Of a stretch of 21,636 nucleotides of DNA, positions 3,368 to 16,815 are shown piece after piece. The first letter of the stretch is position 1. Every line of letters begins with the position of its first letter. Both the position numbers and the translations under genes were made by a program. This stretch comes from a virus, in IMG/VR virus record IMGVR_UViG_3300025806_002210, positions 1 through 21,636 of that record. One strand, written 5' to 3'. The notes under the pieces were generated by a model. The model made no database searches. It was not told where the DNA came from and saw nothing but the letters and a program-made list of their open reading frames with translations.

Positions 3368-3368
3368 G

Positions 3369-3402
3369 AACTAAGGGAGCAGGTGGAGCTACTCCCAAAG
3401 TT
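3369..3402 (-). terminator. Hairpin after the capsid gene, terminator-like or mRNA-stabilising
   Basis: On the minus strand the arms are AACT-TT-GGGAG and CTCCC-TT-AGTT: a 5 bp GC-rich stem, a 2x2 TT internal loop and 4 further pairs, around a 12-base loop. It lies 12 bases after the capsid stop codon. No U-tract follows, so it is not a textbook intrinsic terminator. It may give partial termination or protect the 3' end of the abundant capsid mRNA. Alternative pairings within the loop (GGAG/CTCC) exist. Confidence 0.5.
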
Positions 3403-3414
3403 CCAATATTTACT

Positions 3415-4536
3415 TTAGCTATTTGTTTGTTCAAATAGCAAGTGATATGAAGGAGGTCCGAAATCGAATCCCATCTCCATATAAATTGCTTTACCAACTC
3501 TTGCATTAGCATCTTGGTCAATGTCTCTTACGAACACAGTTCCATATCCTGGGATATTTGTGAATACTGGTTGTATAAAGGCAAGGTCTAAGATGTAAGC
3601 AGTTCCTGAAGGCATGATATTAGGGTCAATGACCATCATACCAATAGAACCAAATGGTGTAACAACTGTATCAATGTCGATACCTGCAACGTTTCTATCC
3701 CTTGGGATAATTGCTGCAGCTAGTCCAATGGTACCTTTAGCTAGTTCTTTGTTAAGAGCTAACAATTGTTTCGGTGTTACCACCAATACAGGTTGTTTCA
3801 TTGGAGCATGAGCATCATACAATCTCTTCATGCCGTCTGCTATTGCATCCCATGTGAGGTCACGAGCTGCAGATGTTGCATCTCCGTCACTGTCACAATA
3901 GTGAATGTTACCACCAACATATGTTGGAGCTACTGTATTGTTAGCATTTGCATTAAGACCAATCCATTGTTTAAGTCCACGCATTTCACGTGTTCCTGAA
4001 CCTGGTGTTGTATTAGCACCGTCTGCGAATGTTCCGTTAAAAGCGAACCATTCTACTTCTCTTGCTACTTTCTCCATTGCTAATTCTAATTGATTAGCAA
4101 ATTCGTCTGTTACTGGGTTACCACCAAAAAGACCTAGTTTGTCTCCTGCTGTGACAGTACCGTCTCCGTCTGAGGAGTTGGCAATGTTTGCAGATAAGTC
4201 AAATGGATTTTGGTTCATGTAACTTGCTAAAGCTGTGTATGTCATTTGTACACCTTTATGGAAAACTTGTGTTGCGAAAGTGTAAGCTACCCTATCGCGA
4301 CCTAAGTATTCTGTTGGAGCTGCACCTTCTTGACCTTTAGTAGGTTCTGAAGATACAGTTGCATTATCAGCTGCTTGGATTTGAAAGAAGGTTGACTGTA
4401 TAGCCTTGCCTCCATTTAAACCACCTGTGGCTGATAAGAAAGGTGTCCTTTGACCACCAACTTTAAACAATTCACCAGTAAAGTTATTAATATTCTGAGC
4501 ATAAATGCTACTGTTTGTTAGGGATATTGCTCCCAT
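3415..4536 (-). CDS. Major capsid protein
   Basis: The 373-residue protein lies right after a scaffold-like gene and has the layout of a HK97-fold capsid protein of the SU10/DUF5309-like type. The N-terminal part has 'RTPFLSATGG' (about residues 30-39) and then an extended loop with 'EPTKGQEGAAPTEYLGRDRV' (about 64-83). A long spine-type helix, 'ELAMEKVAREVEWFAFNG', leads into 'TREMRGLKQWIGLN'. The later part has 'PVLVVTPKQLLALNK', and beta-strand patterns end the protein. A strong AGGAGAAG ribosome binding site precedes the ATG, in keeping with very high expression. A hairpin follows the stop codon. That this is the capsid protein is well supported by context and layout; the exact family needs a profile search. 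Confidence 0.85.
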   Translation of the reverse strand: MGAISLTNSSIYAQNINNFTGELFKVGGQRTPFLSATGGLNGGKAIQSTFFQIQAADNATVSSEPTKGQEGAAPTEYLGRDRVAYTFATQVFHKGVQMTYTALASYMNQNPFDLSANIANSSDGDGTVTAGDKLGLFGGNPVTDEFANQLELAMEKVAREVEWFAFNGTFADGANTTPGSGTREMRGLKQWIGLNANANNTVAPTYVGGNIHYCDSDGDATSAARDLTWDAIADGMKRLYDAHAPMKQPVLVVTPKQLLALNKELAKGTIGLAAAIIPRDRNVAGIDIDTVVTPFGSIGMMVIDPNIMPSGTAYILDLAFIQPVFTNIPGYGTVFVRDIDQDANARVGKAIYMEMGFDFGPPSYHLLFEQTNS

Positions 4537-4568: not shown

Positions 4569-5054
4569 TTATTTTTTTGTTTGTTCGTCAAAAGCATCTA
4601 TAGCATGCAGTTTTGCAGATATAGAACTCCTAACACTTGTCTCTGGATTATTAATAAAAGCGTTTAAATCCGAAAATGAATCTGCTGGAGTTGATTCAAC
4701 TCCCAACTTATTAAGTTGTTCTACACGAGACTGAGCTTCAATTACGTTTTGATTAGGTGGAGCGGCTGGTGTAGTGTCAGCATTAATAGCATTTACTTCT
4801 CCAAACTCTTTACTAACAAAATCTGTTATAGCGTCAACTGTTACATCTCCGTCATACAGTTTTGTTACTGCTTTACCTAGTCCTTTATCAGAAGACAAAC
4901 CTATTGAGGTAAGTGCTGAATCCATTGCTACTGCTTTATATTGTTTATTCTCAGCTTTGAGTTTTTTATACTCTTGTCTAAGTTGTTTAATGTTTTCATT
5001 ATCCAATGATTCTTCAACTTCCTCTACGGCTACTTCTTCTTTAATTTCTTCCAT
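4569..5054 (-). CDS. Capsid scaffold protein
   Basis: This 161-residue, highly charged, acidic protein starts with a predicted coiled coil (about residues 1-42: EEIKEEVAVEEVEE then heptad-like IKQLRQEYKKLKAENKQYK). A helical middle, a Pro/Asn-rich break (about 95-103) and a helical C-terminus (SSISAKLHAIDAFDEQTKK) follow. This is the usual build of tailed-phage scaffolds: acidic, helical, poorly conserved and encoded immediately before the major capsid protein. It would guide prohead assembly inside the shell and then leave. A GAGGA ribosome binding site sits six bases before the ATG, at the end of the structured leader. The gene ends in an A7 run just before its TAA. Confidence 0.82.
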   Translation of the reverse strand: MEEIKEEVAVEEVEESLDNENIKQLRQEYKKLKAENKQYKAVAMDSALTSIGLSSDKGLGKAVTKLYDGDVTVDAITDFVSKEFGEVNAINADTTPAAPPNQNVIEAQSRVEQLNKLGVESTPADSFSDLNAFINNPETSVRSSISAKLHAIDAFDEQTKK

Positions 5055-5208
5055 TATTATTCCTCATTTCTCTGGCATCTAAAACCCCTATATAAATAAT
5101 CGCCAGGTAATTAAAGGGATGTCGCAAGGGATTTATGATACACGTTGGACACCTTGGATAACCAACTGCTACGACCCTATGTTTAAAGTGCCGACCTCGT
5201 CAGGCACT
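5055..5208 (-). promoter_or_regulatory. Structured 5' leader of the scaffold-capsid transcript
   Basis: No reading frame of note lies here. Read on the minus strand from the predicted start at about A5208, the RNA can form three elements. The first is a 5'-terminal hairpin: AGTGCC (5208-5203), bulged T5202, GAC, GAG loop, GTC, GGCACT (5192-5187). The second is an enclosing stem: TTAAA 5186-5182 with TTTAA 5115-5111, and GTCG 5175-5172 with CGAC 5124-5121. Inside it are two interlocking helices: GTTGG 5166-5162 with CCAAC 5148-5144, and CAAGG 5156-5152 with CCTTG 5129-5125, an H-type pseudoknot. The third is a long-range CTGGC/GCCAG pair (5106-5102 with 5076-5072) just before the GAGGA ribosome binding site (5065-5061). 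The segment is visibly richer in G and C than its flanks. It matches no RNA family I know. Pairings were read by eye. Confidence 0.55.
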
Positions 5209-5214
5209 ACATGT

Positions 5215-5243
5215 AGTATATAAAGATATAAATCTAAAGTCAA
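5215..5243 (-). promoter_or_regulatory. Sigma70-like promoter for scaffold and capsid genes
   Basis: On the minus strand TTGACT (5243-5238) and TATACT (5220-5215) each match the sigma70 boxes at five of six positions, with an ideal 17-base spacer. The expected start falls at about A5208, which is exactly the first base of the 5'-terminal hairpin. It lies in the only non-coding gap of the window longer than 100 bases, just before the most highly needed gene pair. The match plus position make it the best promoter candidate in the window. Confidence 0.68.
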
Positions 5244-8608: not shown

Positions 8609-10315
8609 TTAGTTTCCAGGTTGGGAACTGATATTGGCGAGGCTACCCATAAGGCTAGCAAAAGACTTCCTATACTGTGCATCTGCTTGACTCCCTGTAA
8701 TAATATCTCCATAAGTATTTCTCATAAAGTCATTGAAACTGTTAGCCATAGCTGCATCTACATTTACTTCTCCTTCTAATTGACTAGGAGTAAATTGTGA
8801 ACTCATACCAAGACCAGCATACTTTCTTCTTTTTCTTGCATCTTCTAGTTCAAGTTGCATGTTCCTTTGTCTTATATCAAAGTTTTGTTTTTGTAATGAA
8901 TAGTCTTGTTTAGACCACCAATCAAAGTATTGTTGCAACTCTCCATCAGATGCAGGTCTACCTAAACCTTCTGTTATTGCATTTGATATTACATTTGTTG
9001 CATTTGAAAAGTTTGGTTTAGTATATTGAAATATATTCTGGTATGCGTTTTCTCCACCAAAGCCAGGTTCGAAAGCACCAGTACCATAACCGTAGTCTGA
9101 TAAAGTATCTTTAAAGTTTTCTTTTAAGAATACATTCATGTTTGCTGCTGTACTACCAGGTGCCAATAATATACTAAACAAATCCTGCCTAGCCATACCA
9201 TCACCATTTAAATTAAACCTTGACATAGCTGACTCTATAGCTTCTATTGTTCCACCTGGATTGTTATCTAGCACTCCATAAACAAAAGTAAATGGTTGTA
9301 AAAATCCTGATTCAACTAACAACAACTGAGTATCCATTATGTCTTCAGGTGATGCATTAGCAAACAAAGAAGTACCTAATCCTGTCTGGTATAAAGGCAT
9401 AGTACCTTGCCCAGTATCTTCGCTATACACATCTAAATCAAGTTCACCAACACCGTAGTAATCTGTTTCTCCAAAATACTGTTTTGCTCGAATCTGTTCT
9501 TGTTGGTCTGGACTTGTTTCTTCTGGTCCAAAAATCCCAGCCATAGATGTTGGGTCAGCAATTCCTTTGTTTATAAAGTCTATTACATAGTCTTCACCGT
9601 ATTCAGCATCTATAATGTTTTCTATTCCAGCTATGTACTCTTGTGTAGTTATCTCATCGTTGTCTAGTTTATCTTGTAATTCTTTTGCACTATCAAAATT
9701 TATAGCTTCAGCTGCTACTTTTATGTACTCTCCGTCTTTGGCTTCTTTACCTATCTGTGCTTTGTAGGCTAAGTCAGCTTGGTCTGTATAACCTGCTGAT
9801 ATAGCTGTACCTACTATGTCACTACTTATGTGCTGTAGTTCTTCTGGCAGTGTACCTTTTTCATGTAAATCAATAAGTACATTAGCGTTTTCTTTTATCT
9901 GAGAAGCAGCTTCTGCTGATGTTGGATTATTATATGCTAATGATTCATAAGTAAAATTAATTGCGTCTTGCATATTTGGTGGCATCTCGTCCCAAGGTAT
10001 ACCATAAACAGCTTCAGCGTATAGATGATACTCAGCTAAACTTATATCAGGTGAATCAAATGTACCTTCTGGTTCCATTCCACCACTTGTTCTTGCACCT
10101 AAATAATTTTTAACATTAGTTGCAAATTGTCTTACAAACTGGTCATTTCCTAAAAAGAATATACTTAGAAAATCATTAAACTTTTCGTCATCAAAATCTT
10201 TTGATTGAAAACCATCTCTTGTTGCACCAAATGTAAATCGACCATAGCCGACTTCTACTTTAGGACCACCTAAAATATCATCAATAACTGATTGCTCTTC
10301 TTCTGTATACGCCAT
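8609..10315 (-). CDS. Putative virion protein, 568 residues
   Basis: Not recognised. The 568-residue acidic protein contains a tyrosine/glycine-rich central part (FGETDYYGVGELDLDVYSED, about residues 281-300). Near the C-terminus 'GLGRPASDGELQQYFDWW' is followed by a long charged helix (SLQKQNFDIRQRNMQLELED), which could be a coiled coil. There is no signal peptide or convincing membrane segment. Its start overlaps the giant gene's stop by one base and its stop lies one base before the lysozyme ATG. By position it belongs to the giant-protein and lysozyme cassette and is probably packaged with them. Function is inferred from context only. Confidence 0.55.
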   Translation of the reverse strand: MAYTEEEQSVIDDILGGPKVEVGYGRFTFGATRDGFQSKDFDDEKFNDFLSIFFLGNDQFVRQFATNVKNYLGARTSGGMEPEGTFDSPDISLAEYHLYAEAVYGIPWDEMPPNMQDAINFTYESLAYNNPTSAEAASQIKENANVLIDLHEKGTLPEELQHISSDIVGTAISAGYTDQADLAYKAQIGKEAKDGEYIKVAAEAINFDSAKELQDKLDNDEITTQEYIAGIENIIDAEYGEDYVIDFINKGIADPTSMAGIFGPEETSPDQQEQIRAKQYFGETDYYGVGELDLDVYSEDTGQGTMPLYQTGLGTSLFANASPEDIMDTQLLLVESGFLQPFTFVYGVLDNNPGGTIEAIESAMSRFNLNGDGMARQDLFSILLAPGSTAANMNVFLKENFKDTLSDYGYGTGAFEPGFGGENAYQNIFQYTKPNFSNATNVISNAITEGLGRPASDGELQQYFDWWSKQDYSLQKQNFDIRQRNMQLELEDARKRRKYAGLGMSSQFTPSQLEGEVNVDAAMANSFNDFMRNTYGDIITGSQADAQYRKSFASLMGSLANISSQPGN

Positions 10316-13300
10316 TAAATATCTCCTCCATAGTAACTTACTTCTTCTTCTATCTCTACTCTGAATACATCAAAGTACATAAAGTAAAAGTCTGGATTTT
10401 CTAACATTACTTTGTTTGCTACTCCTCGAAGATAAGCTCTAGATTCTTTAGCTTCTGCTCTACTTAATGTAGCATTTAATCCATACTCTGATTTTATTAC
10501 ATTCAATACCCTTTGTCTTGCTGTTAAGTATTTAATGATTCCTTTCATTGCTGACATATCTTTTAACTTCTGAGTAGTACCATCAGGCATTGTTATGGAA
10601 GTATCGCCTTCTCTTTGTATCATTTCAGTAAGTTGTTTTATTTTTGCATCAGTAGATAACGAACGTGGTGCTGTTGATGTATCTCCATATCCTTGAAACT
10701 GTTGTTGTAGTTGTAGTCTTATTAGATATAGTTGTTCTACTCTTTTCTGATATGGCAAGTTTGCATACATAGGTCCGTCCATTATTACTCTTCTAGCATG
10801 TTCATAAGCCAAACTTCCTTGTGCTTGTCTTACAGCTTGTTTATATTCTTCAGGACTAAGGTTAACTCTATCTCCATCAGTGAATGCATTATTCCATGCT
10901 TGAAAATTAAATTCATCTAAAGGACTATCTGGATACATGTAATATGCAACATCAGGGTATTCTTTAAATACAGTTTCATTAAGTTGTTTAAAGTATCCTC
11001 CATCATCTGTAAAAGAAACTTTCTTAATTTGTTTTGACTTAGAAGTCAATAAAGCTGTAGGGTCAAAACCAAATACCTTGATAAACTGTGCTATTGCAAT
11101 AACTCTATCTCCACCTGACTTAGCTAACATCTGATAATATGCATCAGCTAATAGTGTTTGTGCAAAGTATTTACCTTCTGGGTCTTCTTCTTTTGCTTCT
11201 ATTGGGTCTAGATAAGCTCTACCACCTGGTCCAATTTCATAATCGTATTGCAATATAGCACCAGTAGGAGCTATGAATTGTATAAACGCTCTATGTAAAA
11301 GACTTTGTGTAGCTAATTTTTTTGCTTTTTCTAATGAAGCTACTTCTTGTTCTGGTGTAGAGTCATCATAAGACTGTGTCATAAACATAGCTCTTTGAAT
11401 TTCTTTTACAGTATTAGCATAACTTCTTTGAAACTCAGCATCCATTGAGTCACCAGCTATAATGACTTTTCTAAACCAACTAGGCATAGCTTGTTTAGCA
11501 TAGTATATAGGGTTTGCCATTTCTTTTAATCCGTCTTCTGGTCTGCCGTATGGAAAGAAAACTTTATCTACATCAGGAGTAGAAGGTAAAATAGCACTAG
11601 CAGGTATCTGTGCCAATGGTCCTAAGCCAGGTACAATGTCTCCTGCTACCATATTTAAGCCACCAGCATATCCTCTTAACTTAGTATTAATATCAGGTAT
11701 CTCTGTAGTTTGTTGACCAGTTATAGGATTAATTCCTGCTTCATCACCTTCAGGATTTTTAAGACTGTTATCAATATTAAATATATTTTCAAACCAGTTC
11801 ATGTTATACATCTCTTCACCAGACTGTGGGTCAGTTGTAAAGAATCCTTCGTCTTCGTACTCACCAAACAAACTAGGTTTACGCATAGCTTCTATACTTC
11901 TTTGTGCTTTTCTACCAAATAAAGTCTTTTGACCTCTAAGTAATCTTGTCCAAGTACCAGCAATTTCAAGATATACTTCTGCGAAAGGCATAGCTAGTCT
12001 TACCATGTCTGTAATAACATGTCGTTTATTTAAATCGTACAGTAAATCTTTTGTTTCTGTTAGAGCAAATGCTTTGGCTAAGTCATCAACTTGTCTTAAA
12101 TCATCTACTCCTAGTAATTTAGATACATCTGCCTGTTTCATATTCTCTAAACTCTTTATATATTTTCTAGCTCTACTGCCTGGTAATGAATTACCCATCA
12201 TCTTTTTTGCCTGACCTAATACCTGTACTCTTGCAACGTCATCTAGATTTGCATACATGTTTTCCATAAACTTCCAATAAAATTGTCTAAATGCTGGTGA
12301 ACGTGATAAATCATTTGTAGTTGAACCCATTAATCCTGAGAACAATGTTTCTAAAACTTTGTCATATCCACTTGCAAAGTCACCTGTTGTGTCAGTTCTT
12401 GATGCTTTAAAGTGATGTGTGTCACTCCATACTCCACTTTTATTTTTTTGTAACCATGCTCTATATTGTTTATGTTGCGACTCTGACATCTCTCTAGTAA
12501 ATTTAATGTTCTGCGTTTCTCCAGCTTTATTAGTTATAGATACAAATTCATTAGATTCTTTAGCAATGTGACTAATTAGTTCTTCATCTCCAGCTTGTAT
12601 AATGGTATATTCAATAATATTGTTTTCACTTTGTATGTTAGGTTTAATAGAGTTTTCATCCCAAACATTTCCTACAAATTTACCATCAGGTGTTTTCTCT
12701 ACAGCTCTATACCTACCACCAGTTTTATCATGTAGTCTGGCAACAATAGAATCTATATAAGAATCTGCATGTACTTTACTACTTGTTATTAAGTTTTTAG
12801 TATATTTTGATTGTTCATCAGAATTAGAAACAAACGATTTTCTCCATTGACTTAAATCACCATCCCAAAATCTTTTTTTGACTTCATCAATTTGTCTATT
12901 AAATTCTTCTCTACCTCTTACAGGATTGAACTCTACTCTTGCTATAGCTGTAGCTAATGGGTCATCTGCTAGTTGTAATAACTCCTTAGCACCAGCACCA
13001 TAGAATCTTTTGTCACCTTTAGTTACTTGTGTAAAACCTCTAGCTCTCTTTGGGTCAAAGCCAAGAGTCATACCCCCATGAGATTGCGTTAGGGCTTGTT
13101 GATGTCGCATAGCAAGTTCTAATGATTCATCAAATATATCTGTACCACCTCTACCTAGATTCAAGGTATCAGCTAAGTAATCATCTCTTAATAGTTTTCT
13201 TTGGTCTTTAAGAATACCTGCTCTTTGTGATGGCTTTCTACCTAGAACCCAAGCAAATGCAGAAAGAGGGTGAGCAAATGCGTTATCTAAATCTGCTGCC

Positions 13301-16300
13301 CACATACGCAGTTGTTCTTCACCTACAACTCTTACAACCCATGCAGGTCTTAAAAGAATACTAGGTTTCCATATACGTTGCATGTATCCATCACCTACCA
13401 TTGTAAGTAATCCTTCAGTAAGGTTTACTATTTCTTCGTCATCTGCAGTTTTCTTTACATTTACTCTTGATTTTTTAACAAGTAGTTTTAAACTTTCAAA
13501 GAAAGTTCTATCATCTTTTAAAGCTAACTCAGCTAAATCTGTTATTGGTTTTGCTAATAGTCTTTCATAATCAGCATCATTTAAATTTTTACCTCTACCA
13601 GTTAGTCTTAAACCTAAATCTCTCATAGGTCTAAAGACTCTTATAAACAATCTTGCATCAGGCATTGGTATATGACCTTGGTCATAATATTCAGATATTA
13701 AATGTGCTGTTGCTTTAGGAACTTTATTTACTTGTACTCTTTTAGCTAAGTCTTTATTGTTTGCTATTTCATCTGAAATATCTTCAACTAAACTTCTTAG
13801 TTCTTTAGCTGAATATACTGATTCTTCACCAGGTTTTATATTGTTGATAGCATCATCAATTGCAGTCTTTACATTACCTAATGTTATGTTCGGCTTAAAT
13901 ACTTTTTGTACAAAGAATATATCTTCCATAGCTGTTTTAAGCAATGCTTCTTCTGCACCAGTAAATTTACTAGGACCAGAAACATTAAGTGATTTTACAT
14001 TATTAATTTCTGCAAACCTTTGTATTTCTTCTGATTGTTTTTTTGTAAGACCTTTTGATAAATCAACTACAGCATAAGGTTTATGTCCTTGATATACACC
14101 TGGTTTTAATCCTTTAATACCTTCTTCAATAACATGAGTACCTTTTTCCAAGTAGTTAATAACTTGTTTAATACCTTGACCACCTTTATTAGCACCAGTA
14201 AATATAATTGTCATATCAGCATTGTCTAAGTTGTATCTAGATACTCTACTTATTTCTTGTTTGTCTAGTTTCATTGTTGCAAAATCTTGGTCCCAAAAGT
14301 CTTTGTCATAAATCTTTTTCTTATCTAGTTCTGATAAACCTTTAAAGGCAGGGACAACATCATTAACTTGATTTGTCAAGTCACCTATTTGTTTGTCTAT
14401 AGCTGTTCTATCAGTAAGGGCATTAGATAATTCATCTTTAGTAGATTTAACTGCTTCATCTAATTGTTGTGCAATTGCGTCTTTAGCTTCTGCTGTAGTT
14501 GTACCAGGAAATTCTTTTTTATATTTTGTAACATTTTCTGAATTTGGTTTATATTGTTTACTTATCTCATCAACTTGTGTTTTTAAAGAAGTAATTTTTT
14601 CTGTTATGTTTCTTGTTTTACTTTCTAACCCATCAAGTGTTTGTATCTTTGTATTAGTTTTAAGTCTTATTCTTCTAGGTAGCTTTGCAACTTCTTCACC
14701 TACTTCTTCTAATGCACTTTGTCTAGCGAGAGAAAGGTTTTTTAATTGTGCAGCTTTATCTGTATCTGACATATCTGTCAAACCTAATTCTTTCATTCTT
14801 TGTGAAACATCAGTACCAGACTTACCTCTAAAACCATAAGGCACACGACCACCTGTTTGTATACCTATTTCTTCTGCTATGTCTAATGCAGCTTTCTCAA
14901 CACCTTCATAGTATCCACCTGTAACGTACTCTACTAATGCTCTATCTTCTGGTGTAGTAATATTTCCTGCTATCTCTTTAATGTCACTTAGTATTCCATC
15001 TAGCTCATTAGTATCTACTTGATTTGATTTTTTGTACTTAGCTAATACTTTAGATACAATTCCTAAAGCCTCATCATCAGTAAGTTGTTCAGAAAAATAT
15101 GTATCAAAAGGTAAATCTTCTATCTTGCTACCTGGAAAGTATTCAAGTTCTCCAAGTTGGTTTGTAAAATACATTCTAGTTTCATCAATACTTGCCATCC
15201 ATTTGCTTATGCCTTTTTGTAATTCTTTAGGCAAACCTATATTTTCAAATTTTTCACCAATATGTTTTTGTACATCATTCCATATATCTAAAATGTCATT
15301 CATGTTTCTTACACCTTGTGCTCTATCTACGGTATCTATACCTTTTTGTGTAAGAGCTAGGTCTGCTATTCTATCTAAAGCAGGTTCTGCTATTGCATCA
15401 TCTACTCTCGCATATCTCATCCAATCTTGTAAATCAAAAAACGACTGATTAAAGTCATTGACATAAAGTTTTGGTGCAGGAAATGTTTCAAACAATCTAC
15501 CTACAGCAGTGTTATTTAAATTTTGTCGTATAGCCCCAGACAAGCCTACGGCTTCTCCTAGTTCTCCACCGACCATACCACCTAATTTAGATGACACCTT
15601 GCCTCTGAATATCATAGATGTTGGGTTTAGTTTCTTAGTAATCTCTCCTGCTTCTATTGCACCAACTAATAAATCTTCTACATCTTTAGTTGTCTTAGCT
15701 TGTTTAATATTTCTATGTAATACAGCATCAGCACCACTACTACCTCTTTTACCTAGTAATCTTTTTATAGTTCCATAATCATCTGCTTTGACTAATTGAT
15801 TAACAATCTTTCTACCTCCAGCAGTTCTTGTTACATACTCAATAGCAGAAGGAACATGTACTGTTTTTCTTACAGCTTTGTCTATTATTCCAGCACCTTT
15901 TAAAACATCACCTTGTGATAATGACCTAGTAACCTTGCCACCTTTTGACAAATAACCACCAACTAATATTGTTGGGTCAGCTAGCAATGTAAATGCACCA
16001 TCAACAATACCTGTTGCTACATTGTATGACCTTGAACCAGGTTCTAGTACATTAGCAAACATAGGGGCTGCAGGTGTTAATTTAACCGTACCATTCTTAG
16101 ATTGTATAGTTAGTCCTTCGTCTCTAGATTGTTCTTGATTAGTTATATCTTCACCGTAATAAGACTGAACTATCTTCTTTACTTCTTCTGGGTCAGCACC
16201 TCTACCAACCATTTCTTTATATATATCAGTATTCTCTGCTAATGTAGAGTTACCAAAAAATCCTTCACCTAGGTTTACCTTTTCACCTGCAAGAGATTTC

Positions 16301-16815
16301 TTTATTGCATCTCTACCAACAGAAGGACCTAACATTTGTCTAGTCTTTTGCCATTCGCTCTGTGCTTGTTTGTCAAATAATAAAGAAGATGCAGCTGCAA
16401 CAAAACCTTGACCGTCACCATGCTTTCTATCATTAAGATATTTTTGTGTAGCTAACATAGGTTTCTTTACTAACTCATCTTGAAACGAATCAAAACCAAC
16501 AAATGCGGTTCTTACAGCACCTTTACCTGCATTCTTAGTTCTATCCCACCAAGTCTTTTCTACATCTAACCAACGCTCTACTAAAGGAGCTAACTCTGGA
16601 GATTCTGTAGTAAGTCCCATCAAAGCAGAACCAATCAATATATCTTTAGGTAGATAAAAGTTTTCTGAAATAAGTCCTTTGAGGTTTGCAGCAATACCAG
16701 GATTAGATTCTAAAGCAGTAACAAGTTGTTCAGCTTGTACAAATCTTTCTTTTTGAGTTTCTTCTTCTAAATTCTCTGTGTGAGGAGGTTGCCACCACCA
16801 TCTAATTTCTGCCAT
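10315..16815 (-). CDS. Giant virion protein (2166 aa), probable ejected protein with an embedded split SLOG-like domain
   Basis: This is the largest gene in the window, 6.5 kb and uninterrupted. The N-terminus (about residues 1-300) has tryptophan- and glycine-rich segments and a mildly hydrophobic stretch (about 264-290). Residues about 630-690 and 861-968 together resemble a SLOG/YpsA-like nucleotide-binding domain, separated by a charged coiled coil (about 691-860). A conserved-looking middle (about 1140-1200) contains 'SILLRPAWVVRVVGEEQLRM'. A helical region (about 1570-1630) has 'DLLYDLNKRHVITDMVRLAM', and a Gly/Pro-rich hydrophobic patch lies at 1720-1745. No T7/N4-type RNA polymerase motifs were found. 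Very large proteins encoded with structural genes in short-tailed phages are often packaged and injected, and the lysozyme nearby supports that. The start has a TAGGAG ribosome binding site five bases upstream. The CDS is certain; the role is inference. Confidence 0.75.
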   Translation of the reverse strand: MAEIRWWWQPPHTENLEEETQKERFVQAEQLVTALESNPGIAANLKGLISENFYLPKDILIGSALMGLTTESPELAPLVERWLDVEKTWWDRTKNAGKGAVRTAFVGFDSFQDELVKKPMLATQKYLNDRKHGDGQGFVAAASSLLFDKQAQSEWQKTRQMLGPSVGRDAIKKSLAGEKVNLGEGFFGNSTLAENTDIYKEMVGRGADPEEVKKIVQSYYGEDITNQEQSRDEGLTIQSKNGTVKLTPAAPMFANVLEPGSRSYNVATGIVDGAFTLLADPTILVGGYLSKGGKVTRSLSQGDVLKGAGIIDKAVRKTVHVPSAIEYVTRTAGGRKIVNQLVKADDYGTIKRLLGKRGSSGADAVLHRNIKQAKTTKDVEDLLVGAIEAGEITKKLNPTSMIFRGKVSSKLGGMVGGELGEAVGLSGAIRQNLNNTAVGRLFETFPAPKLYVNDFNQSFFDLQDWMRYARVDDAIAEPALDRIADLALTQKGIDTVDRAQGVRNMNDILDIWNDVQKHIGEKFENIGLPKELQKGISKWMASIDETRMYFTNQLGELEYFPGSKIEDLPFDTYFSEQLTDDEALGIVSKVLAKYKKSNQVDTNELDGILSDIKEIAGNITTPEDRALVEYVTGGYYEGVEKAALDIAEEIGIQTGGRVPYGFRGKSGTDVSQRMKELGLTDMSDTDKAAQLKNLSLARQSALEEVGEEVAKLPRRIRLKTNTKIQTLDGLESKTRNITEKITSLKTQVDEISKQYKPNSENVTKYKKEFPGTTTAEAKDAIAQQLDEAVKSTKDELSNALTDRTAIDKQIGDLTNQVNDVVPAFKGLSELDKKKIYDKDFWDQDFATMKLDKQEISRVSRYNLDNADMTIIFTGANKGGQGIKQVINYLEKGTHVIEEGIKGLKPGVYQGHKPYAVVDLSKGLTKKQSEEIQRFAEINNVKSLNVSGPSKFTGAEEALLKTAMEDIFFVQKVFKPNITLGNVKTAIDDAINNIKPGEESVYSAKELRSLVEDISDEIANNKDLAKRVQVNKVPKATAHLISEYYDQGHIPMPDARLFIRVFRPMRDLGLRLTGRGKNLNDADYERLLAKPITDLAELALKDDRTFFESLKLLVKKSRVNVKKTADDEEIVNLTEGLLTMVGDGYMQRIWKPSILLRPAWVVRVVGEEQLRMWAADLDNAFAHPLSAFAWVLGRKPSQRAGILKDQRKLLRDDYLADTLNLGRGGTDIFDESLELAMRHQQALTQSHGGMTLGFDPKRARGFTQVTKGDKRFYGAGAKELLQLADDPLATAIARVEFNPVRGREEFNRQIDEVKKRFWDGDLSQWRKSFVSNSDEQSKYTKNLITSSKVHADSYIDSIVARLHDKTGGRYRAVEKTPDGKFVGNVWDENSIKPNIQSENNIIEYTIIQAGDEELISHIAKESNEFVSITNKAGETQNIKFTREMSESQHKQYRAWLQKNKSGVWSDTHHFKASRTDTTGDFASGYDKVLETLFSGLMGSTTNDLSRSPAFRQFYWKFMENMYANLDDVARVQVLGQAKKMMGNSLPGSRARKYIKSLENMKQADVSKLLGVDDLRQVDDLAKAFALTETKDLLYDLNKRHVITDMVRLAMPFAEVYLEIAGTWTRLLRGQKTLFGRKAQRSIEAMRKPSLFGEYEDEGFFTTDPQSGEEMYNMNWFENIFNIDNSLKNPEGDEAGINPITGQQTTEIPDINTKLRGYAGGLNMVAGDIVPGLGPLAQIPASAILPSTPDVDKVFFPYGRPEDGLKEMANPIYYAKQAMPSWFRKVIIAGDSMDAEFQRSYANTVKEIQRAMFMTQSYDDSTPEQEVASLEKAKKLATQSLLHRAFIQFIAPTGAILQYDYEIGPGGRAYLDPIEAKEEDPEGKYFAQTLLADAYYQMLAKSGGDRVIAIAQFIKVFGFDPTALLTSKSKQIKKVSFTDDGGYFKQLNETVFKEYPDVAYYMYPDSPLDEFNFQAWNNAFTDGDRVNLSPEEYKQAVRQAQGSLAYEHARRVIMDGPMYANLPYQKRVEQLYLIRLQLQQQFQGYGDTSTAPRSLSTDAKIKQLTEMIQREGDTSITMPDGTTQKLKDMSAMKGIIKYLTARQRVLNVIKSEYGLNATLSRAEAKESRAYLRGVANKVMLENPDFYFMYFDVFRVEIEEEVSYYGGDI
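13912..14928 (-). other. Split SLOG/YpsA-like domain within the giant protein
   Basis: The first half, residues 630-690 of the giant protein, reads 'VTGGYYEGVEKAALDIAEEI', then 'GIQTGGRVPYGFRGKSG' and 'LKELGL'-like text. It parallels the family signature ISGGQTGVDRAALDxAxxxGIxxGGxxPxGxR. The second half, residues 861-968, reads 'YNLDNADMTIIFTG', 'HKPYAVVDL' and 'SLNVSGPSKF', parallel to NVRDSDxTLIF, GKPxxVVDL and LNVAGPRES in the same order. Between them lie about 170 charged residues with coiled-coil character. Known members bind nucleotides or related small molecules in a Rossmann-like fold. The glycine loop has one extra residue, and the usual DR is EK. Alignment was by eye. Confidence 0.6.

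Follow-up and report, generated by a model that had tools for sequence, protein, structure and literature searches.

The intergenic stretch ahead of the scaffold and capsid genes in the virus record analysed here has no long reading frame, and it raises the question of whether its transcript forms a conserved structure and, if so, what that structure may do for the genes behind it. The window, by which we mean the whole 21,636 nt (21.6 kb) of the record, carries its late genes on the minus strand, and a near-identical contig of 41.4 kb was found for it (L004, G001). Along the direction of transcription the order is the large terminase subunit, which belongs to an ordinary family, several large proteins, an ORF at 6353-5253, the leader, a 161-aa protein and the capsid protein. 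A single ORF of 2166 aa (window 10315-16815, minus strand) is also found in this late region of a phage of ~41 kb. The 161-aa protein is a member of phrog_7813, a family that gives no function, and has no Pfam match; it is called a scaffold by synteny and position only, since in Mycobacterium phage Mendokysei this place belongs to a protein annotated as head scaffolding protein. The locus thus consists of a capsid gene of the SU10_MCP type with a scaffold gene, so named by position only, ahead of it. The original prediction of a structured RNA in this stretch, lying between two genes, GC-rich against its flanks (47% GC versus 35% in each flanking gene) and transcribed from the first base of its first hairpin, agrees with the sequence, in which the promoter hexamers end at 5215 and place +1 at 5208.

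Table 1. Features of the leader and of the scaffold-capsid unit in the window (positions refer to the window)
Feature	Positions	Strand	Basis or remark
Promoter, sigma-70-type, TTGACT-17 nt-TATACT	5215..5243	minus	sequence; predicted +1 = 5208
P1 hairpin, pseudoknot 1: AGUGCC (5208-5203) with GGCACU (5192-5187)	5187..5208	minus	outer pairs covary
PK1 helix: P1 loop ACGA (5200-5197) with UCGU (5174-5171)	5171..5200	minus	4/4 pairs with double changes
P2 hairpin, pseudoknot 2: GUUGG (5166-5162) with CCAAC (5148-5144)	5144..5166	minus	covariation
PK2 helix: P2 loop CAAGG (5156-5152) with CCUUG (5129-5125)	5125..5156	minus	covariation
P3 hairpin, pseudoknot 3: AUCCC (5120-5116) with GGGGU (5088-5084)	5084..5120	minus	covariation
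PK3 helix: P3 loop CUGGC (5106-5102) with GCCAG (5076-5072)	5072..5106	minus	100% paired
Shine-Dalgarno GAGGA	5061..5065	minus	sequence
Scaffold AUG	5054-5052	minus	sequence
Scaffold-like protein, 161 aa	4569..5054	minus	position directly 5' of capsid gene
Major capsid protein	3415..4536	minus	Pfam SU10_MCP E=1.7e-42; phrog_1328
Terminator-like hairpin 3' of capsid stop	3368..3403	minus	similar hairpin in 19/19 loci inspected, classes A-F

The hairpin behind the capsid stop probably marks the 3' end of the scaffold-capsid unit, and its conservation suggests that leader, scaffold and capsid are probably expressed as one unit of ~1.8 kb. Among the 19 loci its form is independent of the leader class, with stems of GGGUGG..CCACCC, GGGAG..CUCCC or GUGUGGC..GCCACAC and an outer helix of GAAGA/UCUUC or GAAC/GUUC. 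A TGCTATARTA-like motif that resembles an extended -10 element lies after the hairpin (window 3403-3359, minus strand), and the two together may be a terminator joined to a promoter, or else another structured RNA.

The leader RNA (minus strand, 5208-5072) can be parsed into three consecutive H-type pseudoknots, the first of which begins at the predicted +1 and the third of which ends 6 nt short of the Shine-Dalgarno sequence. The two interlocking helices of the original prediction, GTTGG/CCAAC and CAAGG/CCTTG, are both present and covary across relatives; they constitute the second pseudoknot, in which double changes were observed in 8/8 pairs of P2, and PK2 changes from CAAGG/CCUUG to UAAGG/CCUUA and CGAGG/CCUUG. 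The proposed 9-bp hairpin at the 5' end was retained in part, since its outer pairs covary while the inner GAC/GUC pairs are formed in 68% of cells with zero double changes; these inner pairs were rejected on those counts. The same bases form PK1, whose 3' strand UCGU sits directly 3' of a conserved AUAGGG. The stem GTCG/CGAC that had been drawn around both helices has to be abandoned, its outer two pairs being formed in 35% of cells, and the element does not end at 5111 as first drawn, because a third pseudoknot (5120-5072) reaches almost to the ribosome-binding site. In this third pseudoknot P3 varies from AUCCC/GGGAU to AUCCU/AGGAU and AUUCC/GGAAU, PK3 varies from CUAGC/GCUAG to CUGGC/GCCAG, and the P3 loop contains a nearly invariant UUUAAUUACCURGCGAUUA. 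An alternative pairing is available at the junction of PK1 and PK2, where two positions in the 3' strand of PK1 (columns 38-39 of alignment A1) can also pair with the dinucleotide that follows CCUUG (columns 95-96) in 94% of cells, as C-G/U-G and G-C/G-U/A-U; as this pairing competes with PK1, it is possible that it represents a tertiary contact or an alternative fold.

Single-sequence folding stability, by which the original prediction had proposed that it could be refuted, was unremarkable relative to shuffled sequences (z = -1.40 for 5111-5208 and z = -0.15 for 5052-5208) and formally speaks against a structured RNA, and a crude pseudoknot scan was likewise unremarkable; however, stability is a weak criterion for pseudoknots, so that the comparative evidence decides. 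Relatives were gathered in two ways, by the capsid protein and by a conserved 19-mer, TTTAATTACCTRGCGATTA, which recovered 84 contig stretches. Every one of the 63 distinct leaders of the window's own class (class A) fits the same series of three pseudoknots. Standard pairs occupy 94.6% of cells across 17 diverse leaders of class A, compared with 35-50% in controls whose partners were slid by 1-3 columns, and compensating changes of the kind predicted for homologous leaders do occur, 18 of the 32 pairs having changed on both sides. The covariation score was 0.381 versus 0.184 in shuffles, none of the 500 shuffles being as high. As the 19-mer search selected for the PK3 sequence, it is relevant that the 19-mer is present in 125 of the 129 class A loci tied to the capsid gene, so that the conservation of PK3 is not mainly a search artefact.

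A more stringent, tree-based covariation test, modelled on R-scape and written for this analysis, was applied to class A alone. Only PK1 pairs reached an alignment-wide E<0.05 (3 pairs, with pair 10-42 above every null value and two further pairs at E about 0.02), and two off-structure pairs that also passed come from the same fully coupled columns as PK1. The other helices have too few independent changes for significance in this test within class A, whose leaders are closely related outside PK1, and the comparison was therefore extended to classes B and C. Class B leaders have four pseudoknots, their nine helices being 91-100% paired with clear double changes, as in one loop helix that changes from CUAUG/CAUAG to CACAG/CUGUG and CACGG/CCGUG. 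Class C leaders have three, and in 30 distinct leaders the terminal one always has 5-7 bp at one loop offset, realised by about nine sequences (for instance UCAUAC/GUGUGA, UUAUAC/GUAUAA, CUAAU/AUUAG and UCUACA/UGUAGA). Tandem H-type pseudoknots with compensatory changes are thus found in classes A, B and C. Class A has 76 G-U pairs and 0 A-C mismatches, and class B has 107 and 19, an excess which indicates that the selected molecule is the minus-strand RNA rather than the DNA or the opposite strand. Comparison of these relatives shows a conserved fold, in which the minus-strand transcript forms a chain of H-type pseudoknots that is maintained while its sequences change.

A leader of the pseudoknot type was identified in each of the 296 capsid-anchored upstream regions that were long enough (for classes D-F this was judged by eye), comprising 129 loci of class A, 98 of class B, 64 of class C and five of classes D-F together, and at least six classes, each with three to four pseudoknots, can be distinguished. 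Class D was recovered by the class A covariance model (E=5.8e-8) and its first part resembles class B (E=4e-11), so that modules look exchanged between classes. An HMM of the PK2 module of class B finds class D (4e-11), class F (4e-5) and, weakly, class C (0.003); class A was not found by it. The shared layout suggests, without proving it, that all leader classes may have originated from one ancestor. According to the class A model, genomes of ~41-43 kb carry at most one copy, always at the scaffold gene, with no further class A copies elsewhere in the same genomes. Two contigs of ~52 kb, IMGVR_UViG_3300020468_000009 (L049/L104/L271/L297) and IMGVR_UViG_3300025769_000167 (L120/L124), show two capsid genes or two leaders, which reflect either assembly joins or repeated ends. 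At one class F locus (L226; 400 nt upstream of scaffold), a reverse-complement Shine-Dalgarno-like stretch, CCTCCTTTCTGTCCCC, precedes the leader and is absent from other loci.

No Rfam 15 family matched at the gathering threshold in the window or in ten class A, B or C relatives, as had been anticipated, and no Rfam match was found for the class D, E and F loci even up to E=1. Two sub-threshold hits were discarded: CRISPR-DR36, which reached 16.9 of the 38 bits required and lay on the other strand, and SAM-II, which reached 14.4 of 44 bits on the opposite strand of the class C leader of L022; for the latter leader, preQ1 was not listed up to E=10. No description of the leader was found in the literature searched, though large surveys of phage RNA motifs may list some of the sequences. 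The original designation of an undescribed structured RNA ahead of scaffold and capsid therefore holds, given the missing Rfam match, the strong covariation and the conserved position, with "undescribed" meaning absent from Rfam 15 and from the literature searched; structured leaders of phage mRNAs have precedents and it is the architecture that is new.

Both ends of the chain are held at nearly fixed distances from the flanking signals. Counted from the -10 hexamer, pairing begins after 6-7 nt in 41 of the 53 class A leaders measured and after 7-8 nt in 42 of the 54 of class B, which places the first paired base of most loci at the predicted +1. Across the loci measured the last pseudoknot ends 1-9 nt ahead of the Shine-Dalgarno sequence, the gap being 7 nt in 36/52 class A loci and exactly 1 nt, to GGAGG, in 62/62 class B loci; the distance from the last strand to the AUG is 11-13 nt in class B and mostly 17-20 nt in class A. 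These distances imply that the pseudoknot chain is fitted between the transcription start and the ribosome-binding site.

The leader class follows the scaffold gene more closely than either of the other neighbouring genes. The association was evaluated on 169 distinct loci that are related, so that AUC values are descriptive. Scaffold identity is 0.50-0.81 (10th-90th percentile) within a leader class and at most 0.42 between classes (AUC 1.000), whereas the AUC is 0.72 for capsid identity and 0.947 for the upstream gene. Pairs of different class with capsids more than 93% identical number 168, and among the 169 loci there is no pair of different class with scaffolds above 55% identity. For instance, the capsids of L005, L006 and L008 are 96-97% identical to that of the window, while their scaffolds are 28-39% identical and their leaders belong to class C. 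Comparison thus shows that leader and scaffold gene are inherited together. With only about 20 nt between the end of the leader and the first codon of the scaffold gene, this co-inheritance may reflect plain linkage; linkage explains part of it, but the upstream gene, also a close neighbour, is less tightly tied to the class, with 985 same-class pairs having scaffolds above 60% and upstream genes below 40% identity and no pair showing the reverse.

The host of these uncultured ocean phages is probably an uncultured marine Actinomycetota, an assignment that rests on binning: in genome contigs the capsid was found only on two phage contigs, whose leaders are of class A and class B respectively, both binned to one marine Actinomycetota MAG. 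The putative host order comprises 42 genomes of 0.6-1.1 Mb, among which the MAG with the phage contigs was the only one found to carry the class A RNA, and phages of marine Actinomarinales have been described (PMC7771536). RNase E/G is present in 36 of 41 genomes of the order, and no convincing RNase J was found in it. The sole strong RNase J match in the order (G028, contig C8, 7772-9133) is degenerate, contains an in-frame TAG and may be contamination. Among cultured phages the best relatives of capsid and terminase are actinophages at 30% identity or less; the gaps ahead of the scaffold in Mendokysei, Dulem virus 32 and B22 are 69-201 nt, and in two of these no convincing leader match was found by reading.

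Among the functions that had been listed for the element, control of scaffold translation is the best supported, given that the leader segregates with the scaffold gene and keeps a fixed distance to the Shine-Dalgarno sequence; protection of the mRNA is compatible with the evidence. Since leader and scaffold gene are passed on together, the leader is probably the switch that sets the amount of scaffold. We give about an even chance to a cis-acting leader that would control translation of the scaffold-capsid mRNA, probably as a candidate operator of the scaffold itself. The last pseudoknot would extend into the 30S initiation footprint, its folding state would set how easily ribosomes start on the scaffold, and initiation on the scaffold, and through it on the capsid, would come under the control of the leader. 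The Shine-Dalgarno sequence itself is not sequestered by the fold, so that repression would need a bound protein, for which the most likely candidate would be the scaffold. Free, unassembled scaffold would bind and stabilise the leader of its own class and turn off further scaffold synthesis, and assembly would end the shut-off by consuming free scaffold. The 5'-terminal pseudoknot, which would leave little or no free 5' end, may in addition slow 5'-end-dependent decay by host RNase E/G. Put forward more tentatively is the full form of this scheme, an assembly-gated autogenous operator in which a pseudoknot chain of matching class would let the scaffold sense its own state of assembly, the leader and scaffold being swapped as one cassette.

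The main alternative is passive stabilisation of the mRNA, which may also act alongside an operator but which we consider unlikely as the whole explanation. The chain would here block 5'-end-dependent decay and keep the ribosome-binding site open on what would be the most heavily used late mRNA, with nothing sensing the leader. That the chain starts at +1 with its first base paired, that the host order has RNase E/G and that the terminator-like hairpin closes the unit after the capsid, leaving both mRNA ends structured, are all consistent with such a platform. However, a simple hairpin would suffice as a 5' block, blocking of an exonuclease is unlikely in a host order without RNase J, and the near-invariant loops (UUUAAUUACCURGCGAUUA and AUAGGG) together with the perfect association with scaffold type ask for specific recognition.

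It is improbable that the leader is an antitermination element of the HK022 put kind, which would influence RNA polymerase while carried at the 5' end of the nascent late transcript. The leader is 5'-terminal, structured, present in single copy and at the head of an operon that has a terminator-like hairpin after the capsid, and put likewise lies just downstream of its promoter, PL, and contains an RNA triplex (PMC9378689); but put consists of two stem-loops in ~70 nt, for which that source mentions no pseudoknot, and antitermination gives no reason for a fixed Shine-Dalgarno distance or a tie to the scaffold type. A metabolite riboswitch made of stacked pseudoknots, a ligand response having been among the functions first listed, seems very improbable, as nothing indicates a small-molecule ligand. 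H-type pseudoknots beside the Shine-Dalgarno sequence are typical of preQ1-I and SAM-II riboswitches, which, like the high conservation of loops within class A, counts in its favour; yet no Rfam riboswitch scores, a structural gene is an odd target, and classes that differ in nearly all loop sequences would need to share one ligand. Least likely of all is a trans-acting or virion RNA, such as a packaging RNA, that merely shares the locus with the scaffold leader, for although the leader is large, ornate and conserved and phi29 pRNA is a precedent for the use of such an RNA by a phage, the terminator scan found none between leader and scaffold, the last helix is placed to the nucleotide against the Shine-Dalgarno sequence and the family of the large terminase is an ordinary one.

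The leaders constitute a sizeable new RNA family (296/296 loci and at least six structural classes) that was missed by standard annotation. Should the leader prove to be the operator of the scaffold itself, it would offer a defined RNA target for the balance of scaffold and capsid, which is an old question, and the swapped classes would serve as natural specificity controls. The regulatory logic proposed here resembles that of phage P22, in which free scaffold lowers its own synthesis post-transcriptionally (autogenous control), although the P22 proteins are unrelated to the present scaffold and we know of no leader with tandem pseudoknots in P22. The operator of T4 gene 32 offers the nearest likeness in position, since there too a phage mRNA has a pseudoknot at its 5' end, ahead of the ribosome-binding site (PMC535899), and it acts on the gene that it precedes, as the candidate operator described here may do for a scaffold. 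However, its only pseudoknot, of 28 nt, gives way to over 40 nt of unstructured sequence (PMC535899), and the leader shares with it the 5' pseudoknot but not the unstructured repeat: where T4 has an unstructured UUAAA region before the ribosome-binding site, three to four pseudoknots fill the leader. The rpsO mRNA of E. coli and M. smegmatis has a pseudoknot in its translation initiation region that is bound by ribosomal protein S15, which provides an actinobacterial example (PMC8470358); it differs in being a single pseudoknot ahead of a ribosomal-protein gene, and the one in E. coli includes the start of the coding sequence. HK022 put is also a structured phage RNA that acts in cis at the 5' end of a transcript (PMC9378689), but two stem-loops acting on RNA polymerase are a different design from the three to four pseudoknots of the leader. 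Three consecutive pseudoknots in an untranslated region are found in the upstream pseudoknot domain of TMV (PMC4683447), which lies in the 3' UTR of an RNA plant virus; no sequence relation is expected. Neither Rfam nor the literature searched yielded a DNA-phage mRNA that opens directly with a chain of three to four pseudoknots, and with three or four pseudoknots each the present leaders use more of them than do T4 gene 32 or rpsO.
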